Source of the DNA: Desulfamplus sp.
GTDB lineage: Bacteria; Desulfobacterota; Desulfobacteria; Desulfobacterales; Desulfobacteraceae
Assembly (NCBI GenBank): GCA_015232455.1
Contig: JADFZQ010000009.1
Coordinates: 62,001-126,000, forward strand
Length of the DNA: 64,000 nucleotides
Direction of reading: 5' to 3'
Position numbers and translations under genes: made by a program. The notes beneath the pieces are model-generated. The model was not told where the DNA came from and made no database searches. It worked only from the letters and a program-made list of their open reading frames with translations. This document shows positions 20,008 through 44,252 of the stretch, in pieces (the first letter of the stretch is position 1; each line of letters opens with the position of its first letter).

Positions 20008-22167
20008 ATGAAACTTAATACGTACAAAGAAGAAGATGAATTTCCAGATGATTTAATGCGATCCAAGATAGATGAATTTTCTGAAACAATTAAAGCCCAG
20101 ATGTCAGAAGTTGAGCCTGTTTTTCTTCAACTTGGGCAAGATATGCAAAATATCTACTCAGATTCTGCATGCCTTACAGATATTATCACAAAATCTGCGG
20201 ATATTGTTGGCAATCAGAGTAAGGGAAGTTTTATCAACCATATACACAACATCGTAAGCGATCTACTCAAAGAGCTTAAAAATTGCCACGAGACAGTTAG
20301 TGTCAATAAAATTCACATGGACAGCAGCACAGGCGAACTTGAGACATTGTGTAAAATATGCACGAGTTTGGCTAAAACTGCACGATTTCTCAATGTTGTT
20401 GGACTCAATATTGATGTGGAGTCCTGCCGTTCTAATGAATCAAAAAATATGTTTCTTGGATTTGGAGGGGAAGTCAAAGAGCTTGCACACAAAATAGGAG
20501 TGATTGCAGATATTATTTACACAGATTCAAAATCTGTAGAGACAACTCAAGTGTCAGGGATTGCTGCTATAAACGCTAATCTCCAAAAATTGTCGATTCT
20601 TTCTCAGTCGGCTGAAGATAGTGTAAGTTATGCTCTTGAGAAGGTAGAAAAACTGACACAGTTGGCATATACCACCTTAGATAATGCCGCTAACCATTCA
20701 CAAGAGATACAGAATAAGATAGCTGAAATTGTAATGAGTATCCAGTTCCATGATATTGTGAGACAAAAATTAGAGCATGTGATTTCAGCATTTGATGACT
20801 GCATAAAACTTTTAAACCACGATAAATCTGAAGAATCTGACAAAAATAGAGAAGATTCTTATATAAACTCATCTACTTATAAGGATGAGTTGGATAGTGG
20901 TAAGAAGGATTTAGATAACAGTAAGAAGGATTTAGATAGAAGACATGCAAAACTATACTTTGTTTTAAAAATTCAGTCAGCCCAGCTTGAGCATATTATT
21001 TCTGAATTAAATACAGTAAACAGCGACCTTAAAAAGGCGTTTAAAGGAATTGATGACAAAACAGAACTTATGATGGATTACGTAGCAAGTTCAGATTCAA
21101 CCATCAATAAAGTTGATAAAACAGAAACAACTGAGGCAAATAAAATTACCTTAAATGTAGCCTCCAATAAAACACAGAGTAATAGAACGGTTATTAATAA
21201 AAAAACTGCTCAATTTGGTGAATCTGCTAAATTGGGTCAATATGCTCAATCTGGTAAATCTTCTCAATCTGGTCAAGAGCTTAAAAAGGAATTTGACTCC
21301 ATTAAGAAAGAGTTAGAAAACTTAAAGATACTTAGAAATCACGGACAGAGTATATCAGTTGAAATGATGGAGAGTATAAAAAGAACATCTCTAATTGTAT
21401 CTGGACTTACAGAGCATATTGCTAAGGTAAACAGCATAAATATGAATCTTCAGTATAAAGCCTTGAATGCAATAATAATGACCAGTAAACTTGGAGAAAA
21501 AGGACGCACCTTAGAGGTACTTGCAAGAGAGGTCAGGCTCATATCTCTTGACTCAAATGAGTTCATGGAACAGATTGTTAAGACACTTGAAAAAGTAAAA
21601 GAGATCACGGGCAATCTGAAGAAAATTAATGAAGATAGCTCATATCAACTTAATGGAGTTAATGGAGATAATTTAGCAACAAGTGGCATCTCTGACGAGT
21701 TATCTCAATCATTAGATAATACATTAAACCAAATATCTACAACAATAATAAGCTATCAGGAGAATATAGATCACTCTGTTGAAATGTCTCATAAGCTTAG
21801 ACAAAATATTGAAAAAGTGAGAAAACAAGTTGACTCTGTTGCTAAATGGGCAAAAGATACCAATATCATAAAGGAGCAAGTTGATGATATCGTAAAGCAG
21901 ATAGAGCCAATTATCCTTTCTATGGATAAATCTATATTAGTTGAATTTGAGAGTATAGCAAAAAGATATACAATGGAAAGTGAGCGTAAAGTGCATCATC
22001 AGACATCAATGAGAAGCTATGGAGATAATGCTCATATTAATTTTGACAAACAAAACCTTAAACATAGTAGAAAAAATGCGGATAACACCAACTCTCAGGA
22101 AACTCAAATTGATAACGAGCAGGATAACCTAAATGATGAGTTTGACGATAATGTTGAACTTTTTTAA
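20008..22167 (+). CDS. Soluble MCP-like coiled-coil protein heading the chemotaxis operon
   Basis: 719 residues, no signal peptide or membrane segment, strongly helical. Residues about 395-600 resemble the signalling helices of chemoreceptors in divergent form (NMNLQYKALNAIIMTSKLGE at the hairpin-tip position), lacking the canonical EAARAGE core. Near residue 245 is IQFHDIVRQKLEHV, whose D-x-x-x-Q spacing recalls the CheZ phosphatase signature. Low-complexity stretches include DSGKKDLDNSKKDL and GESAKLGQYAQSGKSSQSG. The start has CGGAGG upstream; the next gene follows after 17 bases. It may organise the array or act on CheY-P; I do not know a named family for it. Confidence 0.6.
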   Translation: MKLNTYKEEDEFPDDLMRSKIDEFSETIKAQMSEVEPVFLQLGQDMQNIYSDSACLTDIITKSADIVGNQSKGSFINHIHNIVSDLLKELKNCHETVSVNKIHMDSSTGELETLCKICTSLAKTARFLNVVGLNIDVESCRSNESKNMFLGFGGEVKELAHKIGVIADIIYTDSKSVETTQVSGIAAINANLQKLSILSQSAEDSVSYALEKVEKLTQLAYTTLDNAANHSQEIQNKIAEIVMSIQFHDIVRQKLEHVISAFDDCIKLLNHDKSEESDKNREDSYINSSTYKDELDSGKKDLDNSKKDLDRRHAKLYFVLKIQSAQLEHIISELNTVNSDLKKAFKGIDDKTELMMDYVASSDSTINKVDKTETTEANKITLNVASNKTQSNRTVINKKTAQFGESAKLGQYAQSGKSSQSGQELKKEFDSIKKELENLKILRNHGQSISVEMMESIKRTSLIVSGLTEHIAKVNSINMNLQYKALNAIIMTSKLGEKGRTLEVLAREVRLISLDSNEFMEQIVKTLEKVKEITGNLKKINEDSSYQLNGVNGDNLATSGISDELSQSLDNTLNQISTTIISYQENIDHSVEMSHKLRQNIEKVRKQVDSVAKWAKDTNIIKEQVDDIVKQIEPIILSMDKSILVEFESIAKRYTMESERKVHHQTSMRSYGDNAHINFDKQNLKHSRKNADNTNSQETQIDNEQDNLNDEFDDNVELF

Positions 22168-32603: not shown

Positions 32604-33164
32604 ATGATGGATACACGGGTTTTTATTAAAATAGGAGAATACTATGTAACTCAAGCACCAATATTTATTGGGACAGTATTGGGTTCATGTGTTGGAGTCT
32701 GTCTCTTTGAGAAACAGAAGCGTATTGGCGGATTGAATCATATTCTTTTACCGGGTAACCCTGATTTTGAACATTACAATGACTCTGCCCGCTATGGTAT
32801 CAATGCTATGGAAATTCTTATTAATGGAATTATGAAGATGGGGGGCAAAAAAGAGAATATTATTGCAAAAGCATTTGGTGGAGCATGTGTTACAAGCAGC
32901 TTTTCTTGTGAAAATGGACCTGGACAGAAAAACATTGAATTTGTAAGAAGATTTCTAAAAGACGAAAGGATAAAATTAGTGAGCTACGACTTGGGAGGCT
33001 ATGATATTCGCAAAATTTTTCTAAACTCAAATACTGGAGATGTATTTCTCAAACGCCTTAACTCATCTTTGTCCTCTAAAATCAACCAGATAGAAAAACA
33101 AAATTTAGAAAAGCAGAAGGCAGAGAAAAAACAACAAAAACATGTCATTGAACTTTTTGAATAA
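32604..33164 (+). CDS. cheD: CheD chemoreceptor glutamine deamidase, active-site residues intact
   Basis: 186 residues. FIGTVLGSCVGVCLFEK carries Thr24 and the catalytic Cys29; RIGGLNHILLPG carries His46; AKAFGGACV follows. These are the residues required by CheD for deamidating receptor Gln and for binding CheC where that exists. No cheC is present in the window. A Lys/Gln-rich tail of about 30 residues ends HVIELFE. It is 55 bases after cheB and 18 bases before the aspartoacylase-family gene. A second CheD homologue at 43740 lacks the Cys. Confidence 0.92.
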   Translation: MMDTRVFIKIGEYYVTQAPIFIGTVLGSCVGVCLFEKQKRIGGLNHILLPGNPDFEHYNDSARYGINAMEILINGIMKMGGKKENIIAKAFGGACVTSSFSCENGPGQKNIEFVRRFLKDERIKLVSYDLGGYDIRKIFLNSNTGDVFLKRLNSSLSSKINQIEKQNLEKQKAEKKQQKHVIELFE

Positions 33165-37292: not shown

Positions 37293-37922
37293 TTATTTAT
37301 CTTGTGTTCTCCAAAAATCTCTGCTCTCTTTAAGAATATCCTCAATATCGTCAGAATGACTAAGCTGATTTAAGTCAGCTATAGGATCAAGCTCTTCTTC
37401 AGGTTCATTCAATTCATTTAAGTCAGCAATTGGATCAAGTTCACCCGCATCTTTCTCATCTTCGAGTTGGTCGAGTATATCTCCATCGCCGTCTCCAAGT
37501 ATATCTTCATCTTCAAGAGAAGTAATATCATCAATAATAAGTTCATCATCATCAAGTAGTGGATCATAAGATTTGATTTTAGTATGGTTATCTATCTTAT
37601 TATCTTCTGCATGTGTAGAGTCTATCTTATCTGGGGATATATTATATGGTTCTGGAATATAGTTGCCTTTTCTATCAAACATTATTGACATAGCTGTTTG
37701 CAGTTCAAAATCAACTCTAAATGCAATCTCTCCTTTATGGACAATAATCTCACCACCATTTACATCAAAAGATAAAGAGCTATCTTTATTAAGATCAAAA
37801 GAAGCTGACTTGATTCTTTGTATAAAAATTTCCTTAATAGTATCCCAATCAAGGTCATCTTTAATTGATTCTATCAAATCTCTTTCGCCTGATTTTATGA
37901 CATCTGGCTCTGTAACTTTCAA
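37293..37922 (-). CDS. Acidic protein of unknown function with internal repeat
   Basis: 209 residues starting at TTG 37922 behind AGAGGTG. The first 90 residues look folded (SASFDLNKDSSLSFDVNGGE, IAFRVDFELQTAMSIMFDRK); the remainder is extremely rich in Asp and Glu. Two copies of DPIADLN(E/Q)L appear about 20 residues apart near 160-195, and the protein ends ILKESRDFWRTQDK. No membrane segment or known domain is seen. It lies 57 bases downstream of the receiver-SBP gene and 71 upstream of pckG on the same strand. A docking or scaffold role for an acidic repeat tail is possible but unproven. Confidence 0.6.
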   Translation of the reverse strand: MKVTEPDVIKSGERDLIESIKDDLDWDTIKEIFIQRIKSASFDLNKDSSLSFDVNGGEIIVHKGEIAFRVDFELQTAMSIMFDRKGNYIPEPYNISPDKIDSTHAEDNKIDNHTKIKSYDPLLDDDELIIDDITSLEDEDILGDGDGDILDQLEDEKDAGELDPIADLNELNEPEEELDPIADLNQLSHSDDIEDILKESRDFWRTQDK

Positions 37923-37979: not shown

Positions 37980-39353
37980 TTAACCTTTAAGTACTTTATC
38001 AGCAAAAGATGTATTTACAAATTTTTCAAGATCGATCAATCTGCCAATCTCCATGACATCGTGCATATATTTTTGTATTACATCAAAATCTTCAATAACA
38101 GGATAAAGATCATCCATTTTAATTGCTAAAGGTTGGGAAAATACCTTTTCAAGAACTTTAGTGTTAAGCCCAAGCTGTCCGTCAGGATCAAGAAATTTAA
38201 CAGCAATTTCAGCAGCTCTTACCTTATCTTGCTCAACGTATTGTCCTGTCTCAATGAGTAAGTCAACAAACTCTTGAACAGCATCAGGGTATTTTTCAAT
38301 AAAATCTTTTTGCATAGCAACAATACAGCATGGATGTTTATCCCATCTTGTTGCAGATATAAATTCAAGATTGCCGATCTCTGTTGCAATTGCCTTTGTA
38401 GCAATTGGTTCAGCCACCATAAAACCTGCAACATCTTCATTTTCCTTCATAATGCCCGGCATCTTAATTGGTGGAACAACCTCAAATCTTACATTAATAG
38501 CCTTTTTACCCGGAACACCTGGTTTTAATCCAAGCTCTTTTAGAAATTGGTGTGCCAACATGTGATGAATTGACATTTTGTGCGGAATATCAACAACTTT
38601 GTATTTGTAGAAACTCTGTAGAGAGTCAAAGCGGGGATCATAGTGGCGACTTCTGACAAAGGTGCTGCCGTTTTTGTGGGCAAGAAGCACAAGTTGTATG
38701 GGCGAATCATAAGCAAAAAGGTCCATAGCAATCGGAGCAAGCACAAATGCACAGTCAATTTCACCTGTTTCAAGCCCCTCTTGTATAGGATTCCAACCTG
38801 GCTTACGATCTGTTTTTAGATCAAAGAATCTTGGTATAACCTGTCCAGACTCTATTCTATGTTTTAATGCACCAAGTGCAAGGTGATCTGTAATTTGAAT
38901 ATGGGCAACAGTAAGCTCAACTTTACCATCTACTACATTACGCTTTTTAGGTCCAGATACAGCCACAGCTTCAGGGGCAAACACCTTGTATATTGCATCT
39001 TTTATCTGGTTTGAATCAAATGGTTTTGGCACATGTCCATTACCCTTTGCTTCATAAATAGCGATCTGCTGCCCTTTATCTGCCTGTGCGGTTGCCATTA
39101 TGAATGGGATATTTTGGTAGGGTGGGGTCTTTCTTACCCATTGAAGAAACTCTAAGCCATCCATTCTTGGCATATTCCAGTCACTGATAATCAGATCTGG
39201 TGGTGATTCTTGAACCTTTTTAACACCATCGCTGCCATCTATAGCTACAACAATATTCTCAAACCCTGCTTTATTTAGCATCTGTTTGAACATAATGCGC
39301 ATAGTGCCTGAATCATCTGCTATCAGAATTTTCATTTTTGGATCAACTGCCAT
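37980..39353 (-). CDS. CheY-type receiver fused to a NrtA/TauA-like substrate-binding domain
   Basis: 457 residues starting at ATG 39353 with a good GGAG site. Residues 1-125 are an intact receiver: Asp13/Asp14 (ILIADDSGTMR), phospho-Asp58 (IISDWNMPRMDG), Thr88 (IMATAQ), Lys110 (HVPKPFD). After a short linker, about 138-457 is a periplasmic-binding-protein fold of the nitrate/taurine group: ITDHLALGALKHRIESGQ, GEIDCAFVLAPIAMD, PHKMSIHHMLAHQFLKELG, VAGFMVAEPIATKAI and KHPCCIVAMQKDF. There is no signal peptide, so the binding domain is cytoplasmic. It is the fifth gene of the ABC operon. This architecture implies that ligand binding and phosphorylation influence one another; no such function is known to me. 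Confidence 0.88.
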   Translation of the reverse strand: MAVDPKMKILIADDSGTMRIMFKQMLNKAGFENIVVAIDGSDGVKKVQESPPDLIISDWNMPRMDGLEFLQWVRKTPPYQNIPFIMATAQADKGQQIAIYEAKGNGHVPKPFDSNQIKDAIYKVFAPEAVAVSGPKKRNVVDGKVELTVAHIQITDHLALGALKHRIESGQVIPRFFDLKTDRKPGWNPIQEGLETGEIDCAFVLAPIAMDLFAYDSPIQLVLLAHKNGSTFVRSRHYDPRFDSLQSFYKYKVVDIPHKMSIHHMLAHQFLKELGLKPGVPGKKAINVRFEVVPPIKMPGIMKENEDVAGFMVAEPIATKAIATEIGNLEFISATRWDKHPCCIVAMQKDFIEKYPDAVQEFVDLLIETGQYVEQDKVRAAEIAVKFLDPDGQLGLNTKVLEKVFSQPLAIKMDDLYPVIEDFDVIQKYMHDVMEIGRLIDLEKFVNTSFADKVLKG

Positions 39354-39428: not shown

Positions 39429-40358
39429 TCACTCAATCCACGATTTTGTAAAAGCACTCTGAATTATCTGAAATATTTTATCTAAAGTAAAACCTAAAAT
39501 TCCAATCGCAACAATAATTGCCATAAGGGTGTCGTAAGCCATAGTGTCTCTTGCGTCATTTATCAGATAACCTAATCCACTTGCAACTCCTAAAAATTCT
39601 GCTGGAACAAGCACAATCCAAGCAACTCCTAATGCTAACCTAAGACTTGCCATAATACCCGGAAGAGACGCTGGAATTATAATAGTATAAAATATCTGAA
39701 AGTGGCTGGCTCCCTGATTCATAGCCATCTTTATCCAACTTGGATTCACATTTGCAGCTCCTGATGCTGTATTCAAAATAATGGGCCACACAGTTGCCAT
39801 TACAATAAGAAAATAAATTGCAGATTCAAAATCTGTAAATATAATCAACGCAATAGGCATCCATGCAAGAGGACTTATCATTCTTAGAAATTGAATTGGG
39901 GCGTAGGCAATATTTCTCAAAATTGGATAGTATCCTGTAACAAGACCTAAAGGTATTCCGATAAAAGCAGCAATAAGTATTCCAATAAATACTCTGCTCA
40001 TACTTGCCCATACAGACAAGTAAAATCTCTCTTGAAGCAGAAGTTTATAAAGAGCCTTAAATGTAGGAAAAGGGAGAAAAATATCTCCAGAGGAGATTGA
40101 AGGAACAAGTAAAAAAATCCACCCTGCTACAAACCATAGTAGTAAAAGAATCAATATCCCAAGCAGTTCAAAACGTATATCTGATGCTCTATATCTGAAA
40201 AAAGTGCCAAGACTTATCATCTTCTCTTTTTTTGAGATGCTGTTTATTTCACCATCTGATAATTTATAGCTCTTTTTCTCTTTTTTCTCAGATTTTGATA
40301 TGAGGTGTTTATCAACCAATTTCAATGACCTCTTCGCGAGAGAAAATATTAGGATCAA
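39429..40358 (-). CDS. ABC transporter permease, NrtB/SsuC/TauC type
   Basis: 309 residues from TTG 40358 (another TTG at 40319 is possible and would leave a shorter overlap with the upstream gene). About 50 polar residues precede the first membrane segment (FELLGILILLLLWFVAGWIF). Six membrane segments are visible, with the ATPase-contact loop AMNQGASHFQIFYTIIIP and ASLPGIMASLRLALGVAWI. With the ATPase at 41669 and the binding protein at 40312 it makes an importer for a small anion or organosulfur/nitrogen compound. The overlap with the binding-protein gene supports coupled translation. Confidence 0.9.
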   Translation of the reverse strand: MILIFSLAKRSLKLVDKHLISKSEKKEKKSYKLSDGEINSISKKEKMISLGTFFRYRASDIRFELLGILILLLLWFVAGWIFLLVPSISSGDIFLPFPTFKALYKLLLQERFYLSVWASMSRVFIGILIAAFIGIPLGLVTGYYPILRNIAYAPIQFLRMISPLAWMPIALIIFTDFESAIYFLIVMATVWPIILNTASGAANVNPSWIKMAMNQGASHFQIFYTIIIPASLPGIMASLRLALGVAWIVLVPAEFLGVASGLGYLINDARDTMAYDTLMAIIVAIGILGFTLDKIFQIIQSAFTKSWIE

Positions 40359-41676
40359 CTACATCTTTATTGTTAGAATCAAAAGTTCCGTAAACACTCA
40401 TATTTTTCATAGCTTTTTTAACAAAAGTGTCATCTACAAGCTCTGCTATTGCTAAATTTGGATCAATAGCAATATCTTTTAGAAATTTGGAATCTCCTTC
40501 AACTTTTGTTTTTGCCATCTGGTTAATAATAAACTTAGTTGCTGAAGGGTAAGGATATGGCTGAAAACCAATTCTCCCTATATTCCATTCTGGATGAATT
40601 ATAGGGCGAGGTGGTTCGCCCTCTAAATAATCTTTTAGATCATATTTGGTAAATACCCTCAAAAGCACATCTTCATTTACAGGAAGATAGCCATCTCCTT
40701 TATCTCGGCTTAAAATATTTGCGGCTTTTTCAGGATTTTTTGTGCACCACAGCTGTGCCCTTACAACAGCATTAATGGCTTTTTGAATCATAGCAGGTTG
40801 AGTTTTTATAAAGTTTTCATGGGAGACAACCACACAGCAAGGGTGATTTTTCCAAATATCACCTGTAAACCTCATGATTCTGCCCTTTATTTTCATCTCT
40901 GCAAGAGCGTTAAACGGCTCTGCTACAATAAATCCGTCCATTTTTTTACCAAGAAGTGCTGGAGGCATTTCAGGTGGCGGAAGAACAAAAAGATTTACCT
41001 CATCAGGTGCAATTACAGCACCTTGCGGTTTGATAACAGGCTTTAACCCTTTTGCCATTATTCCCATTTGAACCATGTAGTTGTGGGTAGAATACCATGA
41101 TGGAACAGCAATCTGTCTGCCTCCTAAATCGCCAAAACCTCTTATGTTTGAATCCCCACGAACAGTCAAAGCACTGCCATTTGTATGATCCCACGCAAGC
41201 ACTTTAACTGGAATTTTTTGCTTAAATCTCATCCAGATAGGTATTGGAAACATTAAATGGGTAAAGTTAAACTGACCTCCAATAAATGATTCTGATAACA
41301 CTGTCCACGATCTAACCATTACTGGCTTTGGAACAATTAGCCCCTCTTCTTTAAAAAAACCAAGACTATATGCAATTAAAAGTGGGGTTGCATCTGTTAT
41401 TGGAATATATCCAATTTTAAGCTCTTGCTCATTGTTGTTACTGGCATAAGCAGAAGAGGTGGTAAATGAAGTTGAAAATAAGCTATTTGATATTAGAGAA
41501 GAGCCAAAAGCTGCTCCAGCTCCAATGGTTATTGAAGCACTCTTTTTAAGGAATGATCTTCTGTCAAATAGATCAATAGTATTAATATCGTCATTAATTC
41601 TATTAAGAGCATCATCTCTATTGCTATTTTCATCAACACCATTAAAATCATTTTTCTCTTTTATATAATCACTCAT
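40312..41676 (-). CDS. Tat-exported ABC substrate-binding protein, NrtA/CmpA-like
   Basis: About 454 residues from ATG 41676, which has AGGAGA upstream; an in-frame ATG at 41694 lacks a site. After an unusually long polar leader of about 35 residues comes a twin-arginine signal, DRRSFLKKSASITIGAG. The mature part resembles nitrate/bicarbonate-type binding proteins (LKIGYIPITDATPLLIAYSL, GGRQIAVPSWYSTHNYMVQM, FIVAEPFNALAEMKIKGR, KNHPCCVVVSHENF). It would deliver substrate to the permease. The HPCC motif is shared with the receiver-fused module at 37980, so both may bind the same ligand. Ligand not determined. Confidence 0.9.
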   Translation of the reverse strand: MSDYIKEKNDFNGVDENSNRDDALNRINDDINTIDLFDRRSFLKKSASITIGAGAAFGSSLISNSLFSTSFTTSSAYASNNNEQELKIGYIPITDATPLLIAYSLGFFKEEGLIVPKPVMVRSWTVLSESFIGGQFNFTHLMFPIPIWMRFKQKIPVKVLAWDHTNGSALTVRGDSNIRGFGDLGGRQIAVPSWYSTHNYMVQMGIMAKGLKPVIKPQGAVIAPDEVNLFVLPPPEMPPALLGKKMDGFIVAEPFNALAEMKIKGRIMRFTGDIWKNHPCCVVVSHENFIKTQPAMIQKAINAVVRAQLWCTKNPEKAANILSRDKGDGYLPVNEDVLLRVFTKYDLKDYLEGEPPRPIIHPEWNIGRIGFQPYPYPSATKFIINQMAKTKVEGDSKFLKDIAIDPNLAIAELVDDTFVKKAMKNMSVYGTFDSNNKDVVDPNIFSREEVIEIG

Positions 41677-42502
41677 CAAATGCAATCTCCTCATTCATTT
41701 GGTTCATGGAAAAAAACTTTCTGCTGCCTACGTGTGCTTGCTTTAAATTTGCGAGTATTTCTGCACGATACTCCTTAAATGAAGGAAGATTTATATCTCG
41801 AGGATATGGATCATCAATATCATAAATTCCACTTACACAACCAGGATAACCACCAATCAGGATAATTTTATTACCAAGAAGTATTGCTTCGTTAATGTCA
41901 TGAGTTACGAAAACTGCTGTAAACTTTTCGCTTAACCAAATGTTTACAAGCTCTTCTTGTATATGGGCTTGAGTAAAAGTATCTAATGAGGCAAAAGGTT
42001 CATCAAGAAGAAGCATCTCAGCACGACCAACTAATGCTCTTGCAAGACAGACTCTTTGAGCCATTCCAAGCGAAAGAGAAACAGGTTTTGCATTTTCAAA
42101 TCCTGAAAGCCCCATCATTTCAATAAATTGATAGACTCTATAGTCAAGATTTTCAATATCTCCCCTTAGTTTACACCCATAAGCAACATTATCTTTTACA
42201 GTAAGCCAAGGGATCAATACTGGTTGTTGAAATAGCATAGAGCGAGATGGTTCAATTCCATTTACTTTATTTCCATCTACAAAAACCTCTCCTGATGTTG
42301 GTTTTTCAAGCCCTGCTAAAAGGTTTAACAAAGTCGTCTTTCCGCCACCAGATTCTCCAAGTATAACGACAAAATCACCGCTATTTACGGAAAAGGATAT
42401 ATTGTCTAATACAATATTTTCTCCGCCATCAAAACGAGGAAAAATTTTGGATACATTGCAAACGTCTATTTTCAATTTATTATGCCCCAGCCTCAAGTGC
42501 AA
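41669..42502 (-). CDS. ABC transporter ATP-binding protein, NrtD/SsuB/TauB type
   Basis: 277 residues. Walker A GESGGGKTTLLNLL, Q-loop FQQPVLIPWL, signature LSLGMAQRVCLARALV and Walker B MLLLDEPFASLD are present; the C-terminal part includes FVTHDINEAILLG. The listed start is TTG 42502, inside the end of the upstream gene; TTG 42475, just after that gene's stop and with GGGG upstream, is equally good. It overlaps the next gene by 8 bases at ATGAGTGA. It energises uptake through the 39429 permease. Confidence 0.93.
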   Translation of the reverse strand: MHLRLGHNKLKIDVCNVSKIFPRFDGGENIVLDNISFSVNSGDFVVILGESGGGKTTLLNLLAGLEKPTSGEVFVDGNKVNGIEPSRSMLFQQPVLIPWLTVKDNVAYGCKLRGDIENLDYRVYQFIEMMGLSGFENAKPVSLSLGMAQRVCLARALVGRAEMLLLDEPFASLDTFTQAHIQEELVNIWLSEKFTAVFVTHDINEAILLGNKIILIGGYPGCVSGIYDIDDPYPRDINLPSFKEYRAEILANLKQAHVGSRKFFSMNQMNEEIAFDE

Positions 42503-43427
42503 AACTTCTATCTACAAAATTATCCATATATATTATGTTTTTCATTATTCCCATATCATTAACCATGAAGCGATTAATAACTTCAAGTGATTTAATATCT
42601 GGCATAAGTGAGTTCGGTGTGTTTGGCAAAAAAGATGAGAACATAAACTCAAGAATCTCTCTATCTTGAAAACGTCTAAACTTATCAAAAAACTCTCTTG
42701 AAAGTCGATACAAATCAGTCGAACCTTTATATATAAAATGGCTTGAAGCTACCATAAGATGAATTATATCCATAAGATGTCTGCGATAATCCTTAATAAC
42801 ATAATCGTGTATAACTAAAACTGAGTTTGGGTGAGATGTCCAAATACGAGACGAAGGTAATATCACTTTACCCCAGTTATTTTTAATAACCATAGAACCA
42901 AAAGGTTCTTCTATAAAAACACCACCGATTTCGTTTGATTCATCATTATTTAACATTTCAGGAACGATAAACGGTGGAACAATTTCGATATATACATCTG
43001 GATCACTATCATTTTCAAGCCCTGCTTTCAATCTTGCTGAAGCCATTAGTCGATAAAAAAGAAGATTATGGACAGAAAGATAGTTAGATATAAGAACAGT
43101 TTTCCCTTTAAAATCTGTAAGTTTATTTATGTTTGCAGCTCTATTACCAATTATATATGCTCCGGGGCGGGAATCAAAAAGCACCAATTTCATCTCCATT
43201 CCAGAGTCAAAAAGAGCCATAGCTTCAGGAAGAGGAAGGAATGCTCCATGAAGATCACCATTGCAAAAGGCTTGTTTTATCTGACTCCAACTGCCAAAAG
43301 AGACTGCTGTCATAAGGTGATCAGTGTGTTTAAGAAGAGCTGCTCCAGAACCATCATAAGCAAATCCAAGCATCAGATGTTCAAGAATCCTTAAATGTCC
43401 TATCCTGATAAATGGGAGTCTATTCAA
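42480..43427 (-). CDS. Cytoplasmic substrate-binding-fold protein, paralogue of the ABC binding proteins
   Basis: 315 residues starting at TTG 43427, with AAGG 8 bases upstream and an in-frame stop two codons before it. The sequence begins directly in the fold (FIRIGHLRILEHLMLGFAYD) with no signal peptide or membrane segment. AFLPLPEAMALFDSG, FKGKTVLISNYLSVHNLLFY, GGVFIEEPFGSMVI and SHPNSVLVIHDYV align in order with the binding module of the receiver fusion, and both end with a similar (F/Y)V(D/N)xSFA stretch. It lacks the HPCC motif (SHPNS). It is the first gene of the ABC operon and may sense ligand inside the cell. A missed signal upstream is excluded by the stop codon. Confidence 0.8.
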   Translation of the reverse strand: MNRLPFIRIGHLRILEHLMLGFAYDGSGAALLKHTDHLMTAVSFGSWSQIKQAFCNGDLHGAFLPLPEAMALFDSGMEMKLVLFDSRPGAYIIGNRAANINKLTDFKGKTVLISNYLSVHNLLFYRLMASARLKAGLENDSDPDVYIEIVPPFIVPEMLNNDESNEIGGVFIEEPFGSMVIKNNWGKVILPSSRIWTSHPNSVLVIHDYVIKDYRRHLMDIIHLMVASSHFIYKGSTDLYRLSREFFDKFRRFQDREILEFMFSSFLPNTPNSLMPDIKSLEVINRFMVNDMGIMKNIIYMDNFVDRSFALEAGA

Positions 43428-43739
43428 TGCCTATACCTTATGAATAACTCTATTTTAATTAGTTTTTTAAGTTTATGCTTCTAAGCATTAGAGAATCTCA
43501 GCTATAAGAAAATTTTCATATCTTAATAGTTAAATTTTTAGCACAAGATTGAGTTTATGTGCAATATTTATAATCTAAGGCTTATCATTTATATTATAAA
43601 ATGCGATTCCATAATATCATGCTCTCGCATTAGCACCATTAATCACTTGAAATTGCACATTTAATATAATATTTTAAGTAAAATATCTGTAGGTTTAAGA
43701 TACATAGATAATATAAGGAACAAAAAGACAGATACATTA
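43428..43739. promoter_or_regulatory. Divergent intergenic region between the ABC operon and the CheD-like gene
   Basis: 312 bases, very AT-rich. It must contain the start signals for both the minus-strand ABC operon and the plus-strand CheD-like gene. I see no sigma-54 site, no palindromic operator and no family A/B/C repeat; GATTGAGTTTATGTGC at about 43549 is at most a degraded family A end. Several TATAAT-like strings exist but none has a convincing -35 partner. Confidence 0.4.
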
Positions 43740-44252
43740 ATGAGCAACCAAGATAACATTCCAACCAGATTAGATTACCTCCTAAAGCCTGGGTTTATCT
43801 ATCTGTCAGATAAGCCAATATCAATATCAACTGTAGTAGGCTCGTCTGTAGCCGTATGCCTATTTGATAAAAAGCAAAAAATAGGCGGAATGAACCATTT
43901 CCAGCTTCCAGAGATCAAAGATAGAGAAAAAGCAACGGCAATATATGGTAATGTTGCAAATTTAGCTTTAATAAAGATGATGTTATCAAATGGTTCAAAA
44001 GTCGGACACATTGAAGCACAAATATTTGGAGGTGCTTATAATCCAGAGGTATCTAACATAAACATAGGAATAAATAACATTAGGGCAGCACGCAAAATCT
44101 TAAATAGCAAAAGGATAAAAATTATATCAGAAGATGTTGGTGGTGAAGTTGGAAGAAAGATTATCTTCAACACGTCAACTTGTGAGATTGCCGTGTTGAA
44201 GGTTAAGACTTTAAGAGAATCTGACTGGTATCCTTATGAGAATAATCGGTAA
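43740..44252 (+). CDS. CheD homologue with catalytic Cys replaced by Ser
   Basis: 170 residues. ISTVVGSSVAVCLFDKK aligns with the active CheD at 32604 (IGTVLGSCVGVCLFEK): Thr31 is kept, Cys is Ser36. His53 is kept in IGGMNHFQLPE, and AQIFGGAYNPE follows. Without the Cys the deamidase/amidase reaction should not work, but binding of receptor-like or CheC-like partners could remain. The gene is divergent from the ABC operon that contains the receiver-SBP fusion and stands alone on its strand. The spacing from AAGGAA to ATG 43740 is long, so translation may be weak or the start imperfectly assigned. Confidence 0.85.
   Translation: MSNQDNIPTRLDYLLKPGFIYLSDKPISISTVVGSSVAVCLFDKKQKIGGMNHFQLPEIKDREKATAIYGNVANLALIKMMLSNGSKVGHIEAQIFGGAYNPEVSNINIGINNIRAARKILNSKRIKIISEDVGGEVGRKIIFNTSTCEIAVLKVKTLRESDWYPYENNR

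Follow-up and report, generated by a model that had tools for sequence, protein, structure and literature searches.

The gene at positions 43,740–44,252 of the window (the whole 64,000-nucleotide stretch of DNA analysed here, from the sulphate-reducing bacterium Desulfamplus), which we call CheDS, encodes a 170-residue protein of CheD fold in which serine takes the place of the nucleophilic cysteine. CheDS is probably a catalytically inactive CheD paralogue whose targets would be receptor-like helices or a partner protein; it would modulate chemosensory arrays in connection with soluble sensors of the NMT1 type. Loss of the cysteine is common to many related bacteria, which suggests that CheDS now acts through binding instead of catalysis.

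Fold and catalytic positions of CheDS

CheDS, an open reading frame on the plus strand, matches the Pfam CheD family (PF03975) with 76.6 bits against a cut-off of 25 (E = 1.9e-21), and CheD of T. maritima (2f9z_C) is its sole sequence match in the PDB (E = 2.6e-19). An AlphaFold model built from 53 sequences (the window and its loci) has a pLDDT of 92.1 and a pTM of 0.88, and its top Foldseek match is again 2f9z_C (E = 2.3e-14, TM 0.80/0.88, rmsd 1.7 Å), followed by NTAN1 at rank 2 and then by YfiH-type proteins. The nucleophile motif of CheDS is GSSV, with Ser36 (codon TCT, 43,845–43,847) aligned to the catalytic Cys27 of T. maritima CheD, which is therefore absent. The canonical CheD of the window, identified by sequence and Pfam and used as comparator (32,604–33,164, plus strand), reads GSCV with Cys29. 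These results bear out an earlier note, made from the DNA alone, which had described a CheD homologue with cysteine changed to serine, a retained fold and an intact GSCV copy in the main operon.

The catalytic triad of T. maritima CheD is Cys27/His44/Thr21 (PMC7022378, excerpt). His44 aligns with His53 of CheDS (43,896–43,898), so the histidine named in the note is indeed kept. The note had also listed Thr31 as the retained catalytic threonine, but the alignment places Thr21 at Ser30 (43,827–43,829), one residue away; in NTAN1, serine stands at the position equivalent to the catalytic threonine (PMC7022378, excerpt). Residues 158–166 (44,211–44,237) form the clade-specific C-terminal motif LRESDWYPY. 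CheDS falls under the cut-off of all nine NCBIfam CheD equivalog models (best 121.9 versus 223 bits); because the cysteine-bearing CheD of the window likewise falls short of the 223 bits (165.6 bits), these thresholds cannot separate CheDS from canonical CheD.

Overall, CheDS resembles the CheD deamidases (PF03975; T. maritima 2F9Z, B. subtilis) in fold, Pfam family and the His44 equivalent, but differs by Ser for Cys, Ser30 at the Thr21 position, the additional C-terminal DWYPY and NCBIfam scores below cut-off. The Met-Phe pair that forms the CheC interface of B. subtilis CheD aligns with Asn101-Pro102 in CheDS (PMC3513319, excerpt), indicating that the best-studied CheD binding mode is not kept; CheC was considered as a partner of CheDS, a candidacy weakened by the missing pair. 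A plasmid search returned distant CheDs alone, all with less than 60% identity.

A CheD-like clade with a variable position 36

Relatives of CheDS were sampled by searching 58 related genomes and scanning named genomes, and clade statistics refer to 81 sequences, namely the best 80 of 149 relatives plus the window protein. Cultured relatives contribute members too, for example Desulfospira joergensenii (L055) and Desulfamplus magnetovallimortis (L044). By its sequence, CheDS belongs to a separate CheD-like clade whose signature is the C-terminal motif LRxxDWYPY, with Trp163 in 79/79 and Asp162 in 77/79 readable sequences of this best-80 set; the motif was not seen in the C-termini of 33 control CheDs. 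In trees built without column 36, the clade separates from the controls with support of 99 in one tree and of 100/98 in another with five controls, in which the bootstrap values had not fully settled. Position 36 is occupied by Ser in 42, Cys in 27, Gly in nine and Ala in three of the 81 sequences, and the tree of the same set requires a minimum of 11 switches between Cys and non-Cys, compared with 18 to 26 in 200 label shuffles. Five sequences of this set lack both Cys36 and His53 (L072, L079, L084, L096 and L115): four carry Gly at position 36, and L079 belongs to the Ser subclade described below, with Arg for His53.

Cys and His are kept in all 40 non-clade CheDs sampled from the relatives, a chosen, mostly higher-scoring set that leaves out HDOD-fused, broken and some other matches, and Cys is kept in 30 of the 33 controls, which come from the same loci or genome, the two sets overlapping by at least two genes. 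The remaining three controls are additional CheD copies that read GTSL, starting at L050:7283, L066:7999 and L075:2, which represent another Cys-to-Ser change, within the ordinary CheD lineage and in chemosensory operons. No account of a CheD clade lacking the cysteine was found in the open-licence PMC papers searched.

The serine clade that the earlier note had proposed to look for in CheD alignments does exist. Within the best 80 of 149 relatives plus the window, CheDS falls into a subclade of 34 sequences (support 99/89 in the tree with five controls), all of which carry Ser36, encoded by TCT (18), TCC (11), TCG (3) and TCA (2). Ser30 is present in 33/33 readable members and His53 in 33/34, the L110 sequence being incomplete. 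The frame is open in all eight Desulfamplus CheDS genes compared, and pairwise dN/dS among them is 0.04–0.14 for pairs with computable dS. With its conserved Ser, four Ser codons and low dN/dS, CheDS shows a trait of pseudoenzymes, a fold under purifying selection without its nucleophile. Sequences placed near the Ser subclade carry Gly, in a part of the tree where branch order is moderately supported, and the cysteine may therefore have been lost before serine became fixed.

Uniform Ser36 across 34 sequences, its four codons and the low dN/dS indicate more than chance or error. A base-call error, which the earlier note had named as a possible refutation, would need a single base, as TCT differs by one from the Cys codon TGT; however, Ser is also found in seven other Desulfamplus assemblies, and one of these uses TCA, a codon that no single-base change turns into a Cys codon; this excludes the objection for practical purposes. 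Nor is CheDS at all likely to be a decaying duplicate, a scenario to which the broken or fragmentary copies in L151 and L152 and the absence of the gene from some relatives lend colour, but which fits poorly with low dN/dS and an open frame in 8/8 Desulfamplus genes and with Ser36 in every member of the subclade.

Gene neighbourhood and the REC-NMT1 family

CheDS lies divergent from an NMT1/ABC operon on the minus strand, across an intergenic region (43,428–43,739), an arrangement repeated in 28 related loci. The operon begins with NMT1b, a receiver-less NMT1_2 protein (42,480–43,427; PF13379, E = 8e-19), and continues with an ABC transporter ATPase (41,669–42,502; PF00005, E = 4.5e-33), an NMT1-type substrate-binding protein whose N-terminus looks by eye like a Tat signal (40,312–41,694; PF13379, E = 1.6e-47) and an ABC transporter permease (39,429–40,358; PF00528, E = 3.7e-22). 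These are followed by REC-NMT1, a CheY-like receiver fused to NMT1_2 (37,980–39,353; PF00072, E = 8.7e-26; PF13379, E = 3.6e-26), whose receiver retains Asp58, Thr88 and Lys110, and, at the operon end, by a conserved acidic protein with no Pfam family (37,293–37,922) homologues of which occupy the corresponding position in many loci. The earlier note was thus right that CheDS diverges from the operon, but not that it sits beside the receiver fusion: NMT1b is adjacent, and REC-NMT1 is the fifth gene away.

Genomic context was read from BLAST hits within 6 kb, which under-calls short contigs (12 sequences classed as 'other'). Within the best 80 of 149 relatives plus the window, the NMT1/ABC operon adjoins CheDS in 29 sequences including the window, and Ser is present in 29/29, in agreement with the co-occurrence of serine clade and operon raised in the earlier note. 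In all 28 operon-linked loci outside the window, NMT1b lies upstream on the opposite strand, as the next gene in 27 and beyond two intervening ORFs in L038; L117 was not placed in the layout comparison. No operon is visible beside five members of the Ser subclade: L039, L052 and L110 are classed as 'other', L043 has MCP and CheA genes upstream, and L053 has an MCP-CheW-MCP run upstream. Outside the subclade, clade members lie mostly near chemosensory genes. Loss of the cysteine extends beyond the operon context, as the chemosensory context (40 sequences, L091 counted) holds eight Ser (including L043 and L053), nine Gly and three Ala beside 20 Cys; the 12 'other' sequences comprise seven Cys and five Ser.

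Cys-bearing clade members such as L056, L069 and L070 share DWYPY and 57–60% identity with the window protein, but they retain Cys36 and are located in chemosensory operons, behind flgK, flgL (by eye) and a small exported protein. On the far side of CheDS, an acyl-CoA dehydrogenase gene and others are often conserved. The operon occurs without CheDS in L150, with a broken CheDS in L151 and with a fragmentary one in L152. In L151, a complete genome, an insert of about 4 kb interrupts the gene (L151:9723-14446), and in L152 a C-terminal piece alone remains (L152:8259-8681).

The REC-NMT1 family of the neighbouring operon is chemosensory, since it is joined to Gly-form CheDS in the operons of L091 and L148 and to CheW by fusion, and the link between this operon and the chemosensory machinery at which the earlier note had hinted is thereby upheld. 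In L091 and L148, a one-strand chemosensory run ends with cheB (then cheR in L148), Gly-form CheDS and REC-NMT1. The L148 genome, which is of the same family, has a second REC-NMT1 in an ABC operon (L149) without an adjoining CheDS. Between cheA and cheD, the L148 chemosensory operon also encodes a hemerythrin-domain protein (L148:4168-4578). The genome of the window itself encodes a REC-NMT1_2-CheW fusion of 670 residues on contig C44 (L194:6225-8237; receiver E = 3e-23, NMT1_2 E = 8.7e-23, CheW E = 9e-36), and a CheW match is present in seven of eight further long-frame REC-NMT1 homologues, L231 being the exception. CheV is a coupling protein composed of CheW and a receiver. The fusion likewise joins a receiver to CheW, but unlike CheV it has an added NMT1 ligand-binding domain and the receiver comes first; the likeness concerns the partner family and not CheDS. 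No account of a REC-NMT1-CheW protein was found in the open-licence PMC papers searched.

Across the 58 genomes, with thresholds of >130 bits for CheDS and >280 bits for the REC-NMT1 family, 23 have both, nine CheDS only, eight REC-NMT1 only and 18 neither (p = 0.003, confounded by descent); the association does not reach significance within the family (22, 4, 5, 4; p = 0.16). Because of this confounding, adjacency and fusion carry the weight, and the occurrence of each protein without the other (REC-NMT1 in 8/58 genomes, CheDS in 9/58) counts against a strict bond.

Candidate roles and genomic background

CheDS retains the fold of CheD and a large part of its pocket; with Ser for Cys it probably cannot turn over glutamine, and sequence comparison points strongly to a loss of catalysis. 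The variation at position 36 across the clade, set against Trp163 in 79/79 and non-clade Cys in 40/40, counts in favour of this non-catalytic reading. We infer that CheDS binds receptors, has lost deamidase activity and is a direct partner of REC-NMT1. In NTAN1, Ala for Cys abolishes all activity, and the Ser mutant, designed to retain substrate for crystallography, has a KD of 26.84 nM for one peptide (PMC7022378, excerpt), so a natural Ser form with a kept pocket would be well placed for binding without turnover. This laboratory form (C75S, 6A0F) shares the superfamily fold and the same substitution with CheDS, although NTAN1, a eukaryotic N-terminal asparagine amidase, acts on a different substrate and has 11% identity. 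In B. subtilis, CheD F102E has about normal deamidase activity but weak binding, and its proline taxis is as poor as that of the null, implying that binding is the main role of CheD there (PMC3513319, excerpt).

The putative target of CheDS would be helical, either a helix of the chemoreceptor signalling domain or a receptor-mimicking partner. Its binding would alter the kinase activity of CheA, or protect the site against the Cys-bearing CheDs of the genome, with the clade-specific C-terminal DWYPY as a likely docking or stabilising element. The decoy role suggested in the earlier note is one of several possible binding roles. In this lineage, CheDS would act with NMT1-type soluble sensors (REC-NMT1 and its relatives), linking the transporter/sensor operon to the arrays.

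Two other roles have to be weighed against a binding paralogue tied to these sensors. The near-invariance of Ser36, Ser30 and His53 in the subclade, with Ser36 in 34/34 across four codons, counts against the non-catalytic reading, as a working serine enzyme would show the same; Ser36 could thus act with His53 and Ser30 as a serine-type hydrolase on receptor glutamines, methyl esters or another target. Such an activity is nonetheless unlikely, given Gly or Ala at position 36 in 12 of the 81 sequences (best 80 of 149 plus the window), Arg for His53 in L079, the missing His in four Gly forms and the use of the NTAN1 Ser mutant to trap substrate (PMC7022378, excerpt). CheDS may instead be non-catalytic but serve the general chemosensory system only, where it would compete with active CheD at receptors or take over from it, and its position next to the ABC operon would be an accident of inheritance. 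This carries somewhat more weight, though still well short of probable: clade members outside the Ser subclade lie mostly in chemosensory operons, the Ser forms of L043 and L053 have CheA or MCP/CheW genes but not the operon as neighbours, the operon-linked layout, found in one subclade, resembles one event followed by descent, and far-side genes such as acyl-CoA dehydrogenase are often conserved too. However, REC-NMT1 is joined to CheDS again in another layout, within the chemosensory operons of L091 and L148, and it is also joined to CheW by fusion.

Beyond a binding paralogue tied to NMT1-type sensors, we tentatively entertain that this recurrently inactivated CheD branch is a dedicated adaptor plugging such sensors (REC-NMT1, REC-NMT1-CheW, NMT1b) and the ABC uptake operon into the arrays, in which case cytoplasmic or imported ligand levels would steer behaviour without a transmembrane receptor for the ligand. 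The clade also offers a natural test of the B. subtilis idea that CheD binding outweighs its enzyme role, the enzyme residue having changed repeatedly while the protein was kept, and it draws attention to NMT1-type soluble sensors as a family coupled to chemotaxis proteins.

The window lies on contig C82 of a genome of 4.35 Mb in 82 contigs, the close relatives of which are Desulfamplus assemblies. The four CheD-family genes of this genome comprise GSCI, GSCV, GTCV and GSSV copies; the GSCI copy (L005) adjoins CheA, HDOD, CheY, CheX and CheB genes, and the GTCV copy is a CheD-HDOD fusion (L006:8521-9900, contig C11). Fused CheD-HDOD frames of about 450–500 residues recur among the CheD matches of relatives. 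The genome also has 37 MCP-domain matches, some of which are pieces of one gene, and two CheC-family matches. In the window, a 719-residue protein (20,008–22,167) upstream of STAS, CheY and CheA genes has a sub-threshold match to the MCP signalling domain (23.8 versus 34.6 bits).

Upstream of CheDS, a sigma-28 scan gave no match in 30 sequences and a sigma-54 scan two sigma-54-like matches in 30, with no shared promoter of either kind, and a sigma-70 scan of the window region stayed at shuffle level. By eye, a promoter-like stretch, CTTGATATGG...TATAAAA, is shared upstream of CheDS in L054, L071, L077, L078, L087 and others, with TGGCAAG...TTAA ahead of it, perhaps as a site for a regulator between the divergent genes.
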